A DNA stretch of 25,380 nucleotides from a virus: positions 1 through 25,380 of IMG/VR virus record IMGVR_UViG_3300017714_000151; one strand, given 5' to 3'. A program made the translations under genes and the position numbers. Below are positions 1 through 25,380 of the stretch, one piece after another. The notes under the pieces are model-generated. The model was not told where the DNA came from. It saw nothing but the letters and a program-made list of their open reading frames with translations, and did no database searches. Numbering within the stretch: position 1 is the stretch's first letter; every line of letters begins with the position of its first letter.

Positions 1-1352
1 AGAAAAACTTAGAGACCTTAAACAACCAAACTAATATACTAAAAGCTCAAGGATTTACAGAAAGACAAATCCTTAAAATGAAGTTAGACGGTCAAAAGAA
101 AATAGTAGATGGTCTTATAGCTGAAATAGAAGCACAAAAAATAGTTAATGAGGAGAAAGTACAAGGGTCTATAAGAAATCAAAACATACTTAAAAAGACT
201 GTAGAGTTTCTATTAATAGTACCTAGAACACTTTTAAAATTAAATGAGTTTGCAGCTGAGAGCTTTCTAAAATTAATTAACAAAGTAACTCAAAGTTCAG
301 TAGGAAAAAAACTATTCGGATTCGAACCTATTAATGTAGACTTAGGCTTAACTGAAAGAGCGGACGAATTACTAGACAGAGCTACTAGGTTTATTTTTGA
401 CCCAGAGGCTACAGAGTTAGAAGGTCAAAAAGAAATAGAAATACTAGAGGAAAACTTACTAAAACAAAGAGACGCTTTAGCTGGTCATCAATTAGCTATA
501 TTAAATTTAGATAAGAAATTTGAGGAAGACAGACAAAAATTATTAGATGAAAATAGTAAAAGAGCTAAGTCTAGAACAGCTGAATTAATAGATAGTGATA
601 ATAAATTAATAGAAAAGAAAAAAGGATTTTTAACAGTAATAAGTGAATTAGCACTAGAAGAGGCTAGAATAGAAAAAGAAAAAAATGATAAAATTAAAGA
701 AGATAGGCAGGCTTTAATAAATTTTACAGCTAACTCTATTACTGATGGGCTTTCAACTATAGAAAATTTCACTAGTCAAAGTATTGACAAATACCAGTCT
801 TTAAATGAGCAAGTCTTAGAAGATGAGAAAACTCTTAATAAACAAATATTAGATAATCAAAACTTAACAGAAAAGCAAAAACTAAAACAACTAGAGAAAG
901 TCCAAAGAGATAAACAAAAACTATTAGACGCTAATAATAAAAGAGCTGAAAAGGTTTTTAATATACAGAAAAAAGCTAGTATAGCTGCTGCTTTAATTAC
1001 TACTTATCAGAGTGCGGTTAGTGCTTATCAATCTCAATTTATACCTATACCAGACCCTTCCTCTCCAATTAGAGGGGGAATAGCTGCGGGTCTAGCTGTA
1101 GCCGCGGGGTTAGCAAATGTAAATCAAATTAGAAAACAAAAATTCACAGCTGCGACTTTAGGAGGTGTTCCCAATATAAGCGGTAACTCTATAGGAACTG
1201 GAGGAGGTGGGGAAGCTCCAGTAATTGGACCAGCTAACACTAGCACACTAACAGGACAAGAGCCTCAAAGAGTATTTGTAACTGAGACAGATATAACAAA
1301 CACTCAAAATAATGTAGCTGTAATAGAGGGGCAAAGTACATTTGGAAATTAA
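1..1352 (+). CDS. Tape measure protein, C-terminal part (5' end outside window)
   Basis: The reading frame is open from base 3 with no stop before the first ATG at 78, so this is the C-terminal ~450 residues of a longer protein and the ATG at 78 is internal. Most of it is charged, K/E/Q-rich predicted coiled coil, with one hydrophobic stretch near the start (FLLIVPRTLLKLNEF). Then comes an Ala/Gly-rich hydrophobic segment (ASIAAALITTYQSAVSAY, then GGIAAGLAVAAGLANV) and a Gly/Thr/Asn-rich tail. This architecture is typical of tape measure proteins in siphoviruses of Bacteroidota. They set tail length and sit inside the tail tube. The next gene (protease) starts 12 bp downstream. The tail chaperone that usually precedes a tape measure gene lies at the far right of the window, which suggests the two ends join. 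Family call is by architecture, not a named motif. Confidence 0.8.
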   Translation, partial: KNLETLNNQTNILKAQGFTERQILKMKLDGQKKIVDGLIAEIEAQKIVNEEKVQGSIRNQNILKKTVEFLLIVPRTLLKLNEFAAESFLKLINKVTQSSVGKKLFGFEPINVDLGLTERADELLDRATRFIFDPEATELEGQKEIEILEENLLKQRDALAGHQLAILNLDKKFEEDRQKLLDENSKRAKSRTAELIDSDNKLIEKKKGFLTVISELALEEARIEKEKNDKIKEDRQALINFTANSITDGLSTIENFTSQSIDKYQSLNEQVLEDEKTLNKQILDNQNLTEKQKLKQLEKVQRDKQKLLDANNKRAEKVFNIQKKASIAAALITTYQSAVSAYQSQFIPIPDPSSPIRGGIAAGLAVAAGLANVNQIRKQKFTAATLGGVPNISGNSIGTGGGGEAPVIGPANTSTLTGQEPQRVFVTETDITNTQNNVAVIEGQSTFGN

Positions 1353-8906: not shown

Positions 8907-11122
8907 TGAGTACAGAATTTTACAATAGAAATTGGAGAATGCCAAATTCATTTAATGGCAGTGAAGACAATAACTCAAAGTTTTCTAACTATTCTATGAG
9001 CTTTGATGGGAGTCAATATGTTGATACAAACCAAAGTTTAAGTTCTTCTTATTCAGCTTTAACATTAAGTGCTTGGGTTAATTATACATCTTTAAGTTCT
9101 TTAACAGGTACTATATTTGGTCAATGGATACAAAATAATTTCGAAGTTCCTGGTTCTACTCTAATATGTTACACAGTTTCTAATAAAATAAAAGTTTATT
9201 TAGGGCCTTCTGCAAGTTCTTTAACAAGCACAACTACTTTAAGCACAGGAACTTGGTATAATGTCATTTTAAGATTTGATGGTTCTACTATGAAACTTTA
9301 TATTAATGGAACAGAAGAAGATAGTATAGCTTTTACAGCCATAAATAATTCAGCACAAAATTTAATTTTAGGAGCTTATTCAAATAGTGGTCAAACAGGG
9401 TATCAAAGTTTTTTAAACGGCAAGTTAGACCACGTTGCAATCTTTGACTATGCACTTACAGACGGAACAGGCGGAACAACAAACCAAATAGCTGAACTCT
9501 ACGGAAGCTCCAGCACTGGGGTAGGTAATCCTATGGCTATTACAAATGGTAGAAAGCCAATTTCTTACTATCCTTTAGGAGATTATTCAGCTTATAACGG
9601 AACAGAATATTTAGTTCCTAATAGTGCTGTTAGTGATTATGTATTTGAGATTATACCGCAAGGAGATTATATCAACTGTGGGAAAGGAATTGGCAATAGT
9701 ATTGGTGATAATTACACAGGTGGTTTAACTATCTCTGGTTGGATAAATCCAAACACTACCACAAGTGATGATGGAGTATTCCAGTTCGGTAACTTTACAG
9801 GGTATGAAATGGCTTTAGTTCTTAATGCAAGTAAATTTATTTTTTATAATAATGGTCAGAAATTTGCAGTAAGTTACACAAACCCTAACAATGAATGGAC
9901 AAATTTTGCTTTAACTTTTTTACCTTCTAGCTCTGTTTTTTATGTTAATGGTGTTGTTGCCGCCAACTGGACTTATACAGACTTAGATTTAAATAATTTA
10001 GATTTTATTATAGGTTCTTATTATAATGCGGGTTTCAACCTTACTGGAGAAGTGTCAAATTTTTCAGTATTTAACACAGCTTTACCAGCAACAGGAACAG
10101 AATCAATAGAATCTCTATATAACTATGGAACTCCTCCAGACATTAGCTCTTACAGTGGTTTACAAGGCTGGTGGAAGTTAGATGCTTCAGCTACTTTTGA
10201 CGGCTCTAACTGGAGTATTCCAGACTCAAGTTCTAACTCAAATACAGGAACTTCTAGCGGAATGACAGCAGCAAATTTAGTTCAATCTAATCTTAATATA
10301 TTAAGTCCTTATAGTAGATACGCTTTAGATTTTGATGGGACATCGGATTATATAGAAACTTCATTAATAGACATAACAGGAAATAAAACAGTTTCATTAT
10401 GGATTAAACCTACAGTCACTGGTAATAACGGAGCCATTTTAACCATAGGTCAAGCTGGAGCTTCTTCAGATAATTTAAGTATAGGATTATGGGAAAGTAA
10501 TATTCAAGCACTAATGGTTCAAAATACTTACAAAAGAAGAAGTACAACGACTATAGCTGCTAATACTTGGTACAATATTGTAATAGTTAAATCTACTAAC
10601 ACAATTGAAAATATTTATATAAACTCATTTAACAGTACTTTAAATAATACAGGTGGATGGAATGCAACTATTGACCCTTCACAGTCGAGTATAGGTAAGG
10701 CTTCTTTTAATAGTGGTTCAAACTTTCAATATTTTAATGGTTCTATTTCTAATATTTCAGTGTGGAACGCAGCTTTAAGTTCAGCACAAGTAACAGAAAT
10801 TTATTCAAATGGTTTGCCATCAAATCTCAAAAATCATTCAGCATATTCTAATCTTGTTAGCTGGTGGCAATTAGGTGAAAATATGAGTTATGATTCTAAC
10901 GTGTGGACTGTAATTGATGAGAAAGGAACTAATAATGGAACAGGAGCAAATTTAGCACCAGCTGAGGATTCAATAGTAAATGGAGTTGGTACGTCTGGCA
11001 ATGGTTTAAGTGATGGAATGGGTGCAGCAGATAATATAATAGGCGAAGCACCTTACAGCACTTCAAATGCTTTAAGTTATGGAATGGGAGCAGATGCTAA
11101 AAGCACTTCAGTACCGAGTTAA
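8906..11122 (+). CDS. Multi-LamG tail fibre / receptor-binding protein candidate
   Basis: 738 residues with three LamG-like domains. The first (about 30-204) runs from SMSFDGSQYVDTNQ to LDHVAIFDYALT. The second (about 245-415) runs from YINCGKGIG to VSNFSVFNTALP and WWKLD. The third (about 472-655) runs from YALDFDGTSDYIETS to ISNISVWNAALSSAQVTEIY and LVSWWQLGE. The repeat of strand motifs (SxWI, NTWYNIV, YINGxxV, VAxFNxAL) marks each domain. The last ~80 residues (GNGLSDGMGAADNIIGEA) are Gly/Ser/Ala-rich and repeat a SDGMGA/SYGMGA motif. Likely role: carbohydrate recognition on the host surface. Codon use differs from neighbours (CTA Leu and CTAG are rare; ACA, TCA and GCA more common), suggesting separate origin. 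Confidence 0.8.
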   Translation: MSTEFYNRNWRMPNSFNGSEDNNSKFSNYSMSFDGSQYVDTNQSLSSSYSALTLSAWVNYTSLSSLTGTIFGQWIQNNFEVPGSTLICYTVSNKIKVYLGPSASSLTSTTTLSTGTWYNVILRFDGSTMKLYINGTEEDSIAFTAINNSAQNLILGAYSNSGQTGYQSFLNGKLDHVAIFDYALTDGTGGTTNQIAELYGSSSTGVGNPMAITNGRKPISYYPLGDYSAYNGTEYLVPNSAVSDYVFEIIPQGDYINCGKGIGNSIGDNYTGGLTISGWINPNTTTSDDGVFQFGNFTGYEMALVLNASKFIFYNNGQKFAVSYTNPNNEWTNFALTFLPSSSVFYVNGVVAANWTYTDLDLNNLDFIIGSYYNAGFNLTGEVSNFSVFNTALPATGTESIESLYNYGTPPDISSYSGLQGWWKLDASATFDGSNWSIPDSSSNSNTGTSSGMTAANLVQSNLNILSPYSRYALDFDGTSDYIETSLIDITGNKTVSLWIKPTVTGNNGAILTIGQAGASSDNLSIGLWESNIQALMVQNTYKRRSTTTIAANTWYNIVIVKSTNTIENIYINSFNSTLNNTGGWNATIDPSQSSIGKASFNSGSNFQYFNGSISNISVWNAALSSAQVTEIYSNGLPSNLKNHSAYSNLVSWWQLGENMSYDSNVWTVIDEKGTNNGTGANLAPAEDSIVNGVGTSGNGLSDGMGAADNIIGEAPYSTSNALSYGMGADAKSTSVPS

Positions 11123-11386: not shown

Positions 11387-11493
11387 AATTGATCAAGATT
11401 AAAAAAAAGAGAAAAGGAAGACATAGCAAAAATGCTTCTTTAAGTAAGAATAGTAAGAACTACAAAAAACCCTATGCAAAACAGGGACGCTAA
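11383..11493 (+). CDS. Very basic 36-residue peptide
   Basis: ATG at 11383 in an ATGA overlap with the previous gene; TAA at 11491. The peptide is strongly basic (MKLIKIKKKRKGRHSKNASL start; Lys/Arg about 17 of 36) and ends NYKKPYAKQGR. Small KKRKGRHSK-type peptides next to lysis or fibre genes recur in Bacteroidota phages as I recall. It may bind nucleic acid or membranes; no function is known to me. The overlap and clean start make it likely to be translated. Confidence 0.6.
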   Translation: MKLIKIKKKRKGRHSKNASLSKNSKNYKKPYAKQGR

Positions 11494-11506
11494 AATATTA
11501 TATAAA

Positions 11507-11806
11507 ATGGAGGATCACAGTCTACTAATGGCCATAACTGCTCTAGTAGGGGGCTTAGGCTTAAAACAAATTTGGGATATTATCAAAAAGAAAATGGATA
11601 TTAATGCCAATAAAGAAGCTAGGACAGACGGTTTTCAGATACAAGTAATAGAACAGCTTAAAGAAAAGATAGGGGACTTAGAGAAAAAAATAGACTCATT
11701 AATAACAGAAAACACTCACCTAAGAGAGAAGCTAGCTAGAATGGAAGAGAGGCTATTAATAAACGCAAAAAAAAAAGTCAATAGGCGAAATAATGAAGCT
11801 AAGTAA
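11507..11806 (+). CDS. XhlA-like membrane-anchored coiled-coil protein (lysis accessory)
   Basis: 99 residues from ATG 11507. An upstream in-frame ATG at 11474 would add 11 residues but overlaps the previous gene by 20 bp; 11507 better suits the hydrophobic N-terminus. Residues about 4-18 are a short hydrophobic segment (SLLMAITALVGGLGL). Then comes a heptad-patterned coiled coil (QVIEQLKEKIGDLEKKIDSL and onward) and a basic tail KKKVNRRNN. This matches hemolysin XhlA-type or other lysis accessory proteins that act at the membrane next to an endolysin gene. The stop overlaps the endolysin start. Confidence 0.6.
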   Translation: MEDHSLLMAITALVGGLGLKQIWDIIKKKMDINANKEARTDGFQIQVIEQLKEKIGDLEKKIDSLITENTHLREKLARMEERLLINAKKKVNRRNNEAK

Positions 11807-19742: not shown

Positions 19743-20091
19743 CCAAAAAGGAAAACGTTTTGAGAGGGACGTAGCAAAGCAATTAAATAATAAGTTTAAT
19801 ACTAATGTAAGACGTACTCCAATGAGTGGGGGAATGAGTATTAAAGGAGATATTATAGACATTAATCCAGACTCTGTACTATTTGACTATCATTGGGAAT
19901 GTAAAAACCAGGAGAAGCTAAACATTTGGAAAGCACTAGCTCAGGCTAGAGCAGATAAGCCACTAGGTAAGACTCCAGTAGTAGTGTTTACTAAGAACTT
20001 TGAGAAAGACTACGCCTGCTTAGAATTCGAGGACTTTATGAATTTACTTAAAACAATAGAACAATTACAAAATGAAATCGACACTAAATAG
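19732..20091 (+). CDS. Hjc-like resolvase / PD-(D/E)XK endonuclease
   Basis: 119 residues from ATG 19732; a TTG at 19729 is less likely. Motifs: GKRFERDVAKQLN (Glu11), RRTPMSGGMSIKGDIIDI (Asp40), YHWECKNQEKLNIWKALAQA (Glu56, Lys58), VVFTKNF. These match the Hjc/archaeal-type Holliday junction resolvases and related phage endonucleases. It probably resolves branched DNA formed by the exonuclease/annealing route before packaging. The stop overlaps the next gene by 20 bp. Confidence 0.78.
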   Translation: MNSNQKGKRFERDVAKQLNNKFNTNVRRTPMSGGMSIKGDIIDINPDSVLFDYHWECKNQEKLNIWKALAQARADKPLGKTPVVVFTKNFEKDYACLEFEDFMNLLKTIEQLQNEIDTK

Positions 20092-20416
20092 AATAGCTGA
20101 CCTAATAGAAGAGTATAACTCTACAGATATATTTGACGGTAATAAATTAAACCAGCAACTAAAAGAACTAACTAGTAGACTATATCACATAGAAACTATG
20201 AGAACTAAAGCACACGAAGACTATGAGAAAGTTATTCATACTAAAGTAGCTGAAGGGTTTTCTGTAGCTAGAGCCACTAATGAAGCTAAAGTAGAAGTCC
20301 CTGAGATGTATCAACTAAGAAGACTATTAGAGTCTGGCTATAGGGTAGTGGATGCTATGAGAACAAATATAAGTTTTTTAAAGTCTGAAATGTATAATGT
20401 CACAAAAGAGTATTAA
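20072..20416 (+). CDS. Hypothetical helical protein, 114 residues
   Basis: Mostly predicted helix, with coiled-coil-like parts (LNRIADLIEEYNSTDIFDG, KLNQQLKELTSRLYHIETM, YQLRRLLESGYRVVDAMRT). Ends SEMYNVTKEY. Not assigned to a family. One-base stop/start overlap with the sigma-like gene (TAATG). Confidence 0.65.
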   Translation: MKSTLNRIADLIEEYNSTDIFDGNKLNQQLKELTSRLYHIETMRTKAHEDYEKVIHTKVAEGFSVARATNEAKVEVPEMYQLRRLLESGYRVVDAMRTNISFLKSEMYNVTKEY

Positions 20417-21991: not shown

Positions 21992-22458
21992 CAAAAAAGC
22001 TAACACCTAAACAGAGAAAATTTGCTGAGGAGTACGTTAATACTGGTAATGCTTCAGAGGCTTATAGGAGGGCTTATGATGTTTTAGAAACTACTAGTAA
22101 TGATGTTATAAAAGTAAAGGCTAGTGAACTTCTTAAAAATGGTAACATAGCGGTAACAGTCAAAGAGTTACAAAAAAAAGAAGCTGAAGACTTCCAAATA
22201 ACTAGGAAGGAAGTAGCAGAGGGCTATTTTAAAATGATTAAATCTTGGGAGTATCTAATGGACCTAGCAGCAAAAGAAAACCTAACTAAAGATCAGAAAG
22301 CTAAGTTCTACTTACTTAAAGAAATGGTCAAAGGAAGTGACTATAGAGGAGCTTATGATTCTATTGCTAAGATGTTCGGATTAAACGCTCCAGACAAACA
22401 GGAAATAGAACAGACAGTCCATAATATAAACATCAACATAAAGCGTGGAAGCGACTGA
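21988..22458 (+). CDS. terS: Terminase small subunit
   Basis: 156 residues. The N-terminal motif LTPKQRKFAEEYVNTGNASE, AYRRAYD is typical of the Terminase_2 small-subunit HTH; the C-terminal half has coiled helices (AEGYFKMIKSWEYLMDLAAK) and ends NININIKRGSD. It recognises the packaging site on phage DNA and feeds it to the large subunit. It overlaps the large-subunit gene by 14 bp. The pac or cos site is often near this gene; candidates are the repeats at 23739-23782. Confidence 0.85.
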   Translation: MTKKLTPKQRKFAEEYVNTGNASEAYRRAYDVLETTSNDVIKVKASELLKNGNIAVTVKELQKKEAEDFQITRKEVAEGYFKMIKSWEYLMDLAAKENLTKDQKAKFYLLKEMVKGSDYRGAYDSIAKMFGLNAPDKQEIEQTVHNININIKRGSD

Positions 22459-23623
22459 AATCTTCGAGCGTAACTACGATTCTAAGGCTAAGATAGTAAT
22501 CAATAGAGGAGGTACTAGGAGCAGTAAGACCTGGTCCTTAAATCAATTGTGTGCTTTGTGGTTAATTAGTGGTAATTATGGTAATGGTAATTATATTAGT
22601 GAGGGGGTTTGGACTACTGTAAGAAAGTATAGAACTAATCTAGATGGAACTGTTATAAGAGACTTTGAGGACATTCTAAAAGCAGAGGGCTGGTATAGTG
22701 GGGTAGATCACAACAAAACTAAAAAGCAATACAGATACGGAAAGAGACTAGTAGAGTTTATAGGTGCTGACGATGAGCAAAAGCTAAGAGGAGCTAAAAG
22801 AAATATATTATATTGTAACGAAGCTAACGAGTTAGAATATAAACAGGAGTTTTTTCAGTTACTAATGAGAACAGAGAATAAAATCTTTCTAGACTTTAAT
22901 CCAGACGATGAGCAAATTTGGATTAACCAGGAGCTAGAAATTAAGCGTTCTAATGAGGTAGCAGACGTTGAGGTCATAGTATCTAACTATAAAAATAATT
23001 CATTCCTACCTAAGTCATTAATTAAAGAAATAGAATACCTACAGCAAACAGATAAAGAGTTTTGGAAGATATATGGATTAGGAGAGTATGGTAATATTAG
23101 CGGTCTAGTCTATGAGAATGTTAAGTATATCGATACTATGCCAGACTGTAAGCTAGTATCTTATGGGTTAGACTTTGGATATAGTATAGACCCCTCAGCT
23201 TGTGTAGCTGTATACAGAAAGGATGACGAGCTATATTTAAAAGAGATTATCTACGAAAGAGAATTAACTAACCAGGACCTAGCAGAAAGACTAAGACCTA
23301 TTATAGGTAGAGATGAGGTTATTTGTGATAGTGCAGAGCCTAAAAGTATTGAGGAGATATATAGACTAGGATTAAACGCAAAGCCAGCAACTAAGGGTAG
23401 AGACAGTATTCTAAACGGAATAGACATTCTTAAACGTTTTAAAATAAATGTAGTAAATAGTAGCAACCTTAGAAAAGAGTTTAGAACGTATAAATGGGCT
23501 ACAGATAAAAACGGAAATAGCTTACAAAAACCAATAGGAGCGGATCACTTATTAGACGCTTTGAGATACGTTGCTTTGATACATTTAAAACAAAATAATA
23601 AAGGATGGTATTCAATTAGATAA
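22445..23623 (+). CDS. terL: Terminase large subunit
   Basis: 392 residues, GTG start at 22445. Walker A region GGTRSSKTW (22-30) with Lys28, Walker B ILYCNEAN (121-128, Glu126), DFNPDDEQIW near 150-159. RNase H-fold nuclease residues: GLDFGY (Asp243), CDSAEPKSIEEI (Asp295) and DHLLDALRYV (Asp367, Asp371). It is the ATP-driven motor that packages and cuts DNA. A promoter-like box and the structured non-coding region follow its stop. Confidence 0.93.
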   Translation: MEATEIFERNYDSKAKIVINRGGTRSSKTWSLNQLCALWLISGNYGNGNYISEGVWTTVRKYRTNLDGTVIRDFEDILKAEGWYSGVDHNKTKKQYRYGKRLVEFIGADDEQKLRGAKRNILYCNEANELEYKQEFFQLLMRTENKIFLDFNPDDEQIWINQELEIKRSNEVADVEVIVSNYKNNSFLPKSLIKEIEYLQQTDKEFWKIYGLGEYGNISGLVYENVKYIDTMPDCKLVSYGLDFGYSIDPSACVAVYRKDDELYLKEIIYERELTNQDLAERLRPIIGRDEVICDSAEPKSIEEIYRLGLNAKPATKGRDSILNGIDILKRFKINVVNSSNLRKEFRTYKWATDKNGNSLQKPIGADHLLDALRYVALIHLKQNNKGWYSIR

Positions 23624-23926: not shown

Positions 23927-23977
23927 ACTAATCTAAATAGTGTTTATGGACTTATTGAGTTGTTTTATTTAGTTAGT
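23927..23977. repeat. Inverted repeat, 12-bp arms with one bulged base
   Basis: ACTAATCTAAATA (23927-23939) against TATTTAGTTAGT (23966-23977); the arms pair fully except for one extra T (23932). The 26-nt loop is AT-rich. The arms are AT-only apart from three G/C pairs, so chance cannot be excluded. Confidence 0.45.
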
Positions 23978-24036
23978 GTTTAATTAATTACTATTTAAGT
24001 GAAATAAATTTTAGTGACTTTTGTTATAATTAAATA

Positions 24037-24050
24037 ATTTGTTATATATA
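24037..24050 (+). promoter_or_regulatory. Promoter-like element ATTTGTTATATATA upstream of tail chaperone
   Basis: Identical in 14 bases to 2295-2308. TTTG is 14 nt downstream of a TTG, about the same spacing as in the other copy. ATG follows 6 bp after its end. Likely promoter of the chaperone-tape measure operon. Confidence 0.45.
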
Positions 24051-24055
24051 GAAAT

Positions 24056-24700
24056 ATGGAAATCACAATCCCGACAAAGTGGGAAGACATAACGATAGGT
24101 AAATACATAAACCTAAGACCAGTACTAAACTCTGAACTAAGTCCAATAGAAAGAGTAGTAAACATACTAGCAGTATTAACTGGCCAGAAAAAAGAGGTAA
24201 TTAAAAATATTAGTCTAGACCAGTATAAGACTATTAAAGAAAAAATGTCATTCCTAGAAACTGAACTTCCTAAACAACTAAAAGACAGGAAATTTAAAAT
24301 AGGAGGTAAATGGTATAAGTTTGAAGTCAAAGCACAAAACTTAATTTTTGGGGAATATATAAACACTATGGAGATTCTACAAAGTGCTAAGGATGACCAG
24401 GAGGCTATATTTAATAACCTTCATAGAATACTAACTACTATTTGTAGACCAATAGAAAAGAAGTTCCTTAGATGGAAGGATATTAAGGTAGACGGTGAAC
24501 TACTAAGAGAGACCCAGGAAAACTTTTTTAACAATATGCCAATGACAATAGCTTATCCGATAGGTGTTTTTTTTTACACTCACTCGGAGAGCTTAACGGA
24601 AACTATAAAAATCTGTTTGATGGAGGAAGCTCAGAGACTGAAGAGGGAAGCGGAGACAGAGATAGCTTTAATAAGAGATGGGGATGGTGGCAAACACTAG
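24056..24700 (+). CDS. Tail assembly chaperone, unshifted form
   Basis: 214 residues when read in the zero frame. It begins MEITIPTKWEDITIGKYINL, then LSPIERVVNILAVLTGQKKE, KTIKEKMSFLETELPKQL, and a segment with IRPIEKKFLR-type basic residues near residue 135. It has the size and position of the gpG-like protein that keeps tape measure protein soluble. At codon 171 (GTT at 24566) it meets a 9-T run, after which the zero frame continues for 41 more codons (TETIKICLMEEAQRLKREAE) and ends TAG. Those 41 residues look protein-like too, so both forms may be made. Confidence 0.75.
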   Translation: MEITIPTKWEDITIGKYINLRPVLNSELSPIERVVNILAVLTGQKKEVIKNISLDQYKTIKEKMSFLETELPKQLKDRKFKIGGKWYKFEVKAQNLIFGEYINTMEILQSAKDDQEAIFNNLHRILTTICRPIEKKFLRWKDIKVDGELLRETQENFFNNMPMTIAYPIGVFFYTHSESLTETIKICLMEEAQRLKREAETEIALIRDGDGGKH

Positions 24701-24852
24701 ACAACCTAACAAATAGTAGAATTGACAAATGGGATATAGTACTAGACTGGAATATTATTAAGGCTTTAAATATAGTAGCCTATTATAGTGATAAACAAAA
24801 AATGCAGATGCAAATACAAAAAGACCATATGCAAAAAATAAAAAGAAGGTGA
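24056..24852 (+). CDS. Tail assembly chaperone, -1 frameshift fusion (gpGT-like)
   Basis: The first 173 codons are shared with the zero-frame form. After slipping back one base in the T run, translation continues in the -1 frame for 92 residues to a TGA at 24850-24852 (total about 265). The extension has GGSSETEEGSGDRDSF, then WGWWQTLDN, RIDKWDIVLDWNIIKALNIV, AYYSDKQ and a basic end KIKRR. The open -1 frame starts after a stop near 24530 and has no ATG, GTG or TTG start until almost its end, so frameshifting is needed. Its TGA overlaps the next GTG by a GTGA junction. This is the lambda gpG/gpGT arrangement; the fusion protein is essential for tail assembly in lambda. Confidence 0.8.
24567..24575 (+). 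promoter_or_regulatory. Slippery site for programmed -1 frameshift
   Basis: Nine T bases. In the zero frame they read GTT TTT TTT TAC; the last six Ts form two in-frame TTT codons preceded by T, a T-TTT-TTT heptamer that allows P and A site tRNAs to re-pair after slipping. Frame on both sides confirmed by hand. A stimulatory hairpin was not identified. Confidence 0.8.
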
Positions 24853-25380
24853 GTGATCAATTAGACATATTTGGCTTTGATGTTAACCAACTAGAAGAGG
24901 TTAAAATAGATAACCCTAGTACACTAGCTGAGGTGTTTAATAATATTGCTGCAGATATGGTTTTCTGTTTAAAGCAGTCAGTCCAAAAAGAGAAGCTGAC
25001 TTATAAAGGTGGGTTATTAGAATCTATTAAAATGCCAGTTAAAATGTTTGGTTTTAGAATGGTGGCTACTTTGTTTTTAGCTGACTACTACGACTATCTT
25101 AATAAAGGTGTTAAAGGTATTGGAGGCACTAGAAAAACTGAGAACGGTAAATATATTACAGGACCTATGAAAGCCTGGGAGATTAAAGCTCCAGAAAGTC
25201 CTTATCAATTTAAGAAAGGTCCTAGCGTTAGTCATATTAGACAGTGGGCTAAAAGTAAGGGCTTAAATGAATACACTGTTAGAACGTCAATAGCTCACAA
25301 AGGAATTAGACCTAGATACTTTTTTGACAATTGTATGAAAGAGACTTTTTATGGTGAAACATTTAACAGATTTAAAACAG
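24849..25380 (+). CDS. HK97 gp10-like tail/neck protein (cut by window end)
   Basis: GTG start at 24849 in a GTGA overlap with the frameshift ORF; reads through the window end, so only 177 codons are visible. Sequence: SDQLDIFGFDVNQLEEVKID, TLAEVFNNIAADMVFCLKQ, KGGLLESIKMPVKMFG, DYYDYLNKGVKGIGGTRK, and PRYFFDNCMKETFYG near the end. The pattern (helix, then strands with a Gly-rich loop, then an R-P-R-Y-F segment) is what I know from gp10-like head-tail connector proteins. Located just before where the tape measure gene should be. Confidence 0.65.
   Translation, partial: MSDQLDIFGFDVNQLEEVKIDNPSTLAEVFNNIAADMVFCLKQSVQKEKLTYKGGLLESIKMPVKMFGFRMVATLFLADYYDYLNKGVKGIGGTRKTENGKYITGPMKAWEIKAPESPYQFKKGPSVSHIRQWAKSKGLNEYTVRTSIAHKGIRPRYFFDNCMKETFYGETFNRFKT

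Follow-up and report, generated by a model that had tools for sequence, protein, structure and literature searches.

A run of nine Ts in the window (the whole 25,380-nucleotide stretch of viral DNA that was analyzed) appears from comparative sequence evidence to be a real, conserved recoding site of a variant G/GT type, for which slippage of RNA polymerase is the best-supported candidate mechanism. The product of the gene that carries the run is probably a tail-assembly-chaperone-like protein with two forms, the longer of which would arise by programmed transcriptional slippage with the insertion of one U. The amount of the longer tail-assembly protein may be set by the stutter of RNA polymerase. 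Recoding of the tail chaperone is the textbook case of ribosomal frameshifting in phages. In chaperones of the G/GT type the short form binds the tape measure protein, the extension binds the tail tube protein, and both forms are missing from the virion. The features of the site are listed below.

24056 to 24700, plus strand: zero-frame gene of 214 amino acids and a stop codon; putative short, G-like form, conserved in all relatives.
24567 to 24575, plus strand: T9 slip run, nine Ts in length, read as GTT TTT TTT TAC in the zero frame; it includes the ribosomal heptamer T_TTT_TTT.
24574, plus strand: base Z, the third base of the second Phe codon.
24568 to 24852, plus strand: -1 frame extension (FFLHSLGELNGNYKNLFDGG...KRWGWWQTLDNLTNSRIDKWD...KRR, stop TGA); putative T-like domain of the long form.
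24576 to 24697, plus strand: dual-coded overlap of the zero-frame tail and the -1 extension, both constrained.
24849 to 25379, plus strand: next ORF, whose GTG start (24849-24851) overlaps the TGA of the extension; it is cut by the contig end.

The zero-frame protein is composed of an N-terminal region (IPTKWED...) and a 41-codon tail past the T9 run. Directly behind a TAA near 24531 the -1 frame opens, and it stays open until the TGA at 24850-24852; its earliest ATG is at 24802, with no ATG, GTG or TTG ahead of it. The original prediction had described the position and zero-frame phasing of the run, the 41-codon continuation, an open -1 frame from about 24531 to 24852 with no start before 24802, and the TGA/GTG overlap, and all were borne out when the sequence was re-read. 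A complete version of the downstream ORF in a relative encodes 196 amino acids (L002, 5794-6384), and a family search with the ORF of the window gave no match.

Relatives were obtained from viral contigs with two kinds of query, the zero-frame protein and the extension; one of these searches covers the best 80 of 345 matches. A DNA-pattern scan in which C was permitted at both Phe wobble bases identified at least 80 loci, every one of them this gene. The run is T9 in 145, T10 in three, and T8 in one of 149 distinct sites. Among the relatives listed, with the pattern-scan loci included (224 distinct sites), the corresponding numbers are 218, 5, and 1, and the length is never seven. T9 or T10 is kept even at 20-30% protein identity. 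The lone T8 allele (L057, 2758), which throws the reading frames beyond it out of step, may reflect a mutation or an error in sequencing.

The run appears in three codon phases. The dominant one, phase 1, is xTT TTT TTT TAY. Phase 0 consists of three consecutive Phe codons, TTT TTT TTT, followed by ATC or TAT, and phase 2 is nnT TTT TTT TTG, with S, A or N ahead of two Phe residues and a Leu TTG behind them; these two rarer phases are represented by few sequences (7 and 5). The residues flanking the two Phe residues differ between phases, and the two Ts beyond the heptamer are supplied by different codons in each phase, with a total of at least nine in all three. An in-frame T_TTT_TTT heptamer lies within the run in every relative and in all phases. 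The third frame meets a stop 2-17 codons beyond the run. Across 185 kb of ORFs with 100 or more amino acids, drawn from 22 loci, sense-strand T runs of nine or more are found at the chaperone-gene site and in two other ORFs only (L189, 2324-3160, and L118, 2126). A coding-strand A10 is also present in the window at 11767-11776, near the end of the ORF at 11474-11806 and just ahead of an overlapping peptidase-like ORF at 11793; it is a possible further slippage site.

The proposal that the -1 extension is a real, protein-like segment was substantiated, since its conservation extends to all relatives that possess it and is confined to the -1 frame. As originally proposed, there is strong support for a switch into the -1 frame at the T9 run, because the extension is conserved in that frame alone. 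Both frames and the T run are retained in more than 220 distinct relatives, and the conservation of the extension reaches back to the run. As a refutation, relatives without the run, or whose -1 frame is interrupted by stops, were sought; none was found among the relatives apart from the frame-breaking T8 contig. A -1 frame open for this length was obtained in 0.2% of synonymous randomizations with the zero-frame peptide fixed, and a zero frame open for this length in 1.9% of those with the -1 peptide fixed. In 46 close relatives, the shares of substitutions at the three zero-frame codon positions are 0.28/0.10/0.62 upstream of the run, 0.25/0.35/0.39 in the overlap, and 0.17/0.59/0.24 past the zero-frame stop. 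These three zones match the expectation for a translated zero frame, followed by both frames and then by the -1 frame alone. A chance open frame was ruled out by the randomizations and the substitution patterns. The zero-frame tail beyond the run has 17-72 codons in the relatives and, on these patterns, is under constraint across the family rather than being a peculiarity of the phage in the window.

The evidence that bears most directly on the mechanism comes from base Z. In phase 1, Z is silent in both frames, where it distinguishes TTT from TTC (Phe) in the zero frame and TTA from CTA (Leu) in the -1 frame. The Z position of an X_XXY_YYZ heptamer is free, and C is tolerated there. Z is T in 209 of the 209 phase-1 sites among the relatives listed. 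On a tree of 206 sequences, parsimony assigns no changes to Z versus 11-35 changes to each of 14 comparable two-fold columns, and a smaller sequence set gave the same pattern. At the other doubly silent bases of the overlap, C is found in 74 of 230 cases (32%). C at Z was found in only two of the matches listed (L211 and L316), both of which contain an extra Phe codon and ten Ts, and none of the at least 80 pattern-scan loci has C at a Phe wobble base within a nine-T context. The run of at least nine Ts is therefore under selection, because Z is invariant, other doubly silent bases vary, and the sole Cs sit in T10 sites. By this comparison, the run is selected for a length beyond the need of a ribosomal heptamer.

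The main rival explanation is classical programmed -1 ribosomal frameshifting, in which tRNAs would slip on U_UUU_UUU without a strong stimulator, as in lambda G/GT and P2 E/E'; it is considered rather unlikely. A perfect in-frame heptamer is present at the switch in every relative and phase as T_TTT_TTT, the frame entered is always -1, and known tail chaperones rely on ribosomal slippage (PMC5009743). Heptamers of the form H_HH.U_UU.Y are efficient in E. coli, among them U_UUU_UUC, which is used by IS elements (PMC4066793). The efficiency of this last heptamer also counts against the explanation, because a site used by the ribosome only would then be expected to tolerate C at Z. Seven nucleotides suffice for the ribosome, and such a site would be conserved as a heptamer only, with Z and the flanks free, yet Z is invariant and the run has at least nine Ts in 223 of the 224 sites. 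No heteropolymer heptamer occurs at the switch in the clade. A strict A-site preference for UUU over UUC would account for Z but not for the flanking Ts; both flanking Ts of phase 1 could be held by amino acid constraint (V/I/L before and Y/C after).

A stimulatory stem-loop or pseudoknot is common, but not obligatory, in the frameshifting of phage tail genes. Folding of the sequence downstream of the run in the window gave z-scores of -0.58 and -1.07, with no detectable structure, and no compensatory pairs were found near the run in 12 relatives; a conserved downstream structure, which would have favored the ribosome, is absent from this set. A stem-loop stimulator was rejected on the basis of the folding z-scores and the lack of compensatory pairs. 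A stable hairpin (z of -2.5) lies downstream of the run in L068 and is absent at the other sites folded.

The original prediction had implied a ribosomal -1 slip. This is probably not the main mechanism, because the conservation exceeds the heptamer and fits slippage by RNA polymerase. For transcriptional slippage, the expected signature is a conserved, uninterrupted run of about nine or more A or T residues, as observed in this gene (218 T9, 5 T10, and 1 T8), under a constraint that is independent of codon phase and exceeds the heptamer, as observed in the three phases and in the 209 invariant Z bases. A stretch of nine A or T residues is enough for efficient slippage by bacterial RNA polymerase (PMC5009743), and in many genomes runs of nine are visibly selected against (PMC1088944). 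Insertions by slipping RNA polymerase exceed deletions about threefold (PMC6260861), and one inserted U yields exactly the -1 frame. In the proposed mechanism, the majority of transcripts would keep U9 and give the 214-residue short form. On the T9 run, the 9-10 bp RNA:DNA hybrid would allow the host RNA polymerase to slip, and one U would be added in some transcripts. Ordinary translation of the U10 transcripts, or of those of any length giving an equal frame, would then enter the -1 frame and produce the long form, composed of the shared N-terminal region of about 172 residues and the helical, T-like extension. During tail assembly the short and long forms would work together at a fixed ratio, like gpG and gpGT of lambda. 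This mechanism is considered probable, and no firmer than that, because a ribosome strict for UUU could account for Z, and because slippage itself, its direction and its ratio are inferred from sequence.

A combined action, in which the T9 run would serve both polymerase and ribosome with its length selected for the joint yield, is quite improbable. Both kinds of slip can share one site (PMC5009743), and the heptamer and the nine-nucleotide run are both present here, but the data do not require joint action and do not distinguish it from purely transcriptional slippage. The reading of the -1 frame as a separate gene or pseudogene with an internal start, and of the T9 run as an incidental AT-rich homopolymer, is scarcely credible: it agrees with the annotation of two Nonlabens phages (described below) and with late in-frame ATG codons such as that at 24802, but it was rejected since there is no start ahead of that codon and the extension is conserved back to the T run in more than 220 relatives, and it also conflicts with a switch in substitution pattern that fits continuous coding through the run and with the near absence of T9 from other genes in the 22 loci.

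The identity of the protein was addressed by structure prediction and family searches. The AF2 model of the zero-frame protein has a pLDDT of 87.7 and a pTM of 0.79; that of the extension consists of helices only and is of moderate confidence (pLDDT of 66). The only PHROGs matched are 32199 (zero-frame protein) and 38404, both of unknown function. For neither part did a sequence search of the PDB give a credible match, and a fold search there with the zero-frame model gave none either. Nothing exceeded the Pfam cutoff for the window protein; one member of the family matched PF10109 at an E value of 0.079, and none did so in a wider set. By sequence, no known chaperone family was matched in Pfam or PHROGs. 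A Foldseek search of BFVD gave uncharacterized phage proteins as the top matches, including that of P12024S; annotated tail assembly chaperones were weak matches, with E values of 0.02 (probability 0.87) and 0.10 (probability 0.63), ranked below many uncharacterized proteins. Four BFVD proteins (A0A516L611, A0A6J5SVK3, A0A6J5MY57, and A0A6J5N3F3) match the models of both the extension and the zero-frame protein and are perhaps natural single-ORF fusions.

The genomic setting is that of a packaging and structural module, to which two genes of the window bear witness.

22445 to 23623, plus strand: large terminase (PHROG 2, E value of 3.5e-36), upstream of the site in the packaging/structural module.
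78 to 1352, plus strand: tape-measure-like protein (PHROG 3336, E value of 7e-12), possibly the C-terminal part only, as the contig is a linear fragment.

The chaperone-like gene follows the terminase, and the tape-measure-like gene is at the opposite end of the contig. In L028, the tape-measure-like gene is directly upstream of the chaperone-like gene and an XkdF-like ORF is downstream. Gene order around the site varies among the relatives, and the neighbors are mostly unnamed. L002, a relative with 99% identity to the window, contains a methyltransferase-like ORF (753-1364) that the window lacks in the interval from the ORF at 20072 to that at 20416. The hallmarks of the G/GT type, namely one start that yields two products through a conserved shift to -1 close to where the first ORF ends, are predicted from the sequence in more than 220 relatives. 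A role as a tail assembly chaperone is likely by analogy, because the architecture and context point there. The siphovirus G/GT analogy that was drawn initially is plausible from the tail-module context, the combination of an N-terminal protein with a recoded α-helical extension, and the weak fold matches; confirmation by a sequence family was not obtained.

The cultured Nonlabens (Persicivirga) phages P12024L and P12024S contain true homologues, which share the -1 extension and have their T9 run at JQ823123.1:24388-24396. The zero-frame overlap, at 26 codons, is shorter than in the window, and GenBank divides the gene into a pair of hypothetical genes, numbered 40 and 41 in P12024L. The other T9 runs of JQ823123.1 (35.6 kb) occur only near both genome ends. 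The segment at 23946-24640 of JQ823123.1 (L124, 7998-8692), annotated as genes 40 and 41, and its equivalents in P12024S should be one recoded gene; PHROG 32199 and PHROG 38404 are the two halves of this gene. A scan of genomes for prophage relatives gave a single match (L159, Clostridium), which is unrelated, and the profile built from the extension had too much diversity to serve in such a scan. Flavobacterium phage 6H (L369, KC959568.1; R9VW65) is a fold-level relative, with its gene at 10352-10927 on the minus strand and an unannotated open frame of about 300 nucleotides beyond the stop of the ORF. Its T_TTT_TTC is trailed directly by a -1 stop, so recoding in phage 6H, if any, would use another site or direction.

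The current annotation divides the gene into two PHROGs and into two GenBank genes, and P12024L/S on Nonlabens offers a simple cultured test system. In the open-access literature searched, no paper was found that describes a phage tail gene as recoded by transcriptional slippage, and the recoding of tail chaperones is treated there as ribosomal. If correct, this would be the first case of polymerase slippage for a phage structural-assembly gene within that literature; evolution would then keep the protein ratio rather than the machinery, and tail assembly would be tied to the host polymerase. A slightly bolder proposal, still fairly likely, is that a large, mostly marine clade of tailed phages, flavobacterial phages included, moved the control of the chaperone ratio from ribosomal frameshifting to an obligatory polymerase slippage on at least nine Ts, with long dual-coded C-termini.

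Like lambda gpG/gpGT, P2 E/E' and the HK97-type chaperones, the gene appears to lie in a tail/packaging module, would give from one start short and long forms that share the N-terminus, and has a -1 extension predicted to fold as a small helical domain. It differs from them in that no sequence family is matched and in that the slip site is an invariant T9 or T10, whereas theirs is a variable heptamer. The zero frame continues for 17-72 codons past the site, whereas the overlap in published sets of tail chaperones averages 26-36 nucleotides (PMC10885494), and the conservation points to slippage by RNA polymerase over the ribosome. Like Thermus dnaX, the Shigella T3SS genes and IS elements, the gene contains a coding homopolymer of about nine A or T residues with multi-frame products (predicted here) that is kept by selection; unlike them, it is a phage structural-assembly gene found in hundreds of mostly marine contigs, with long dual coding.
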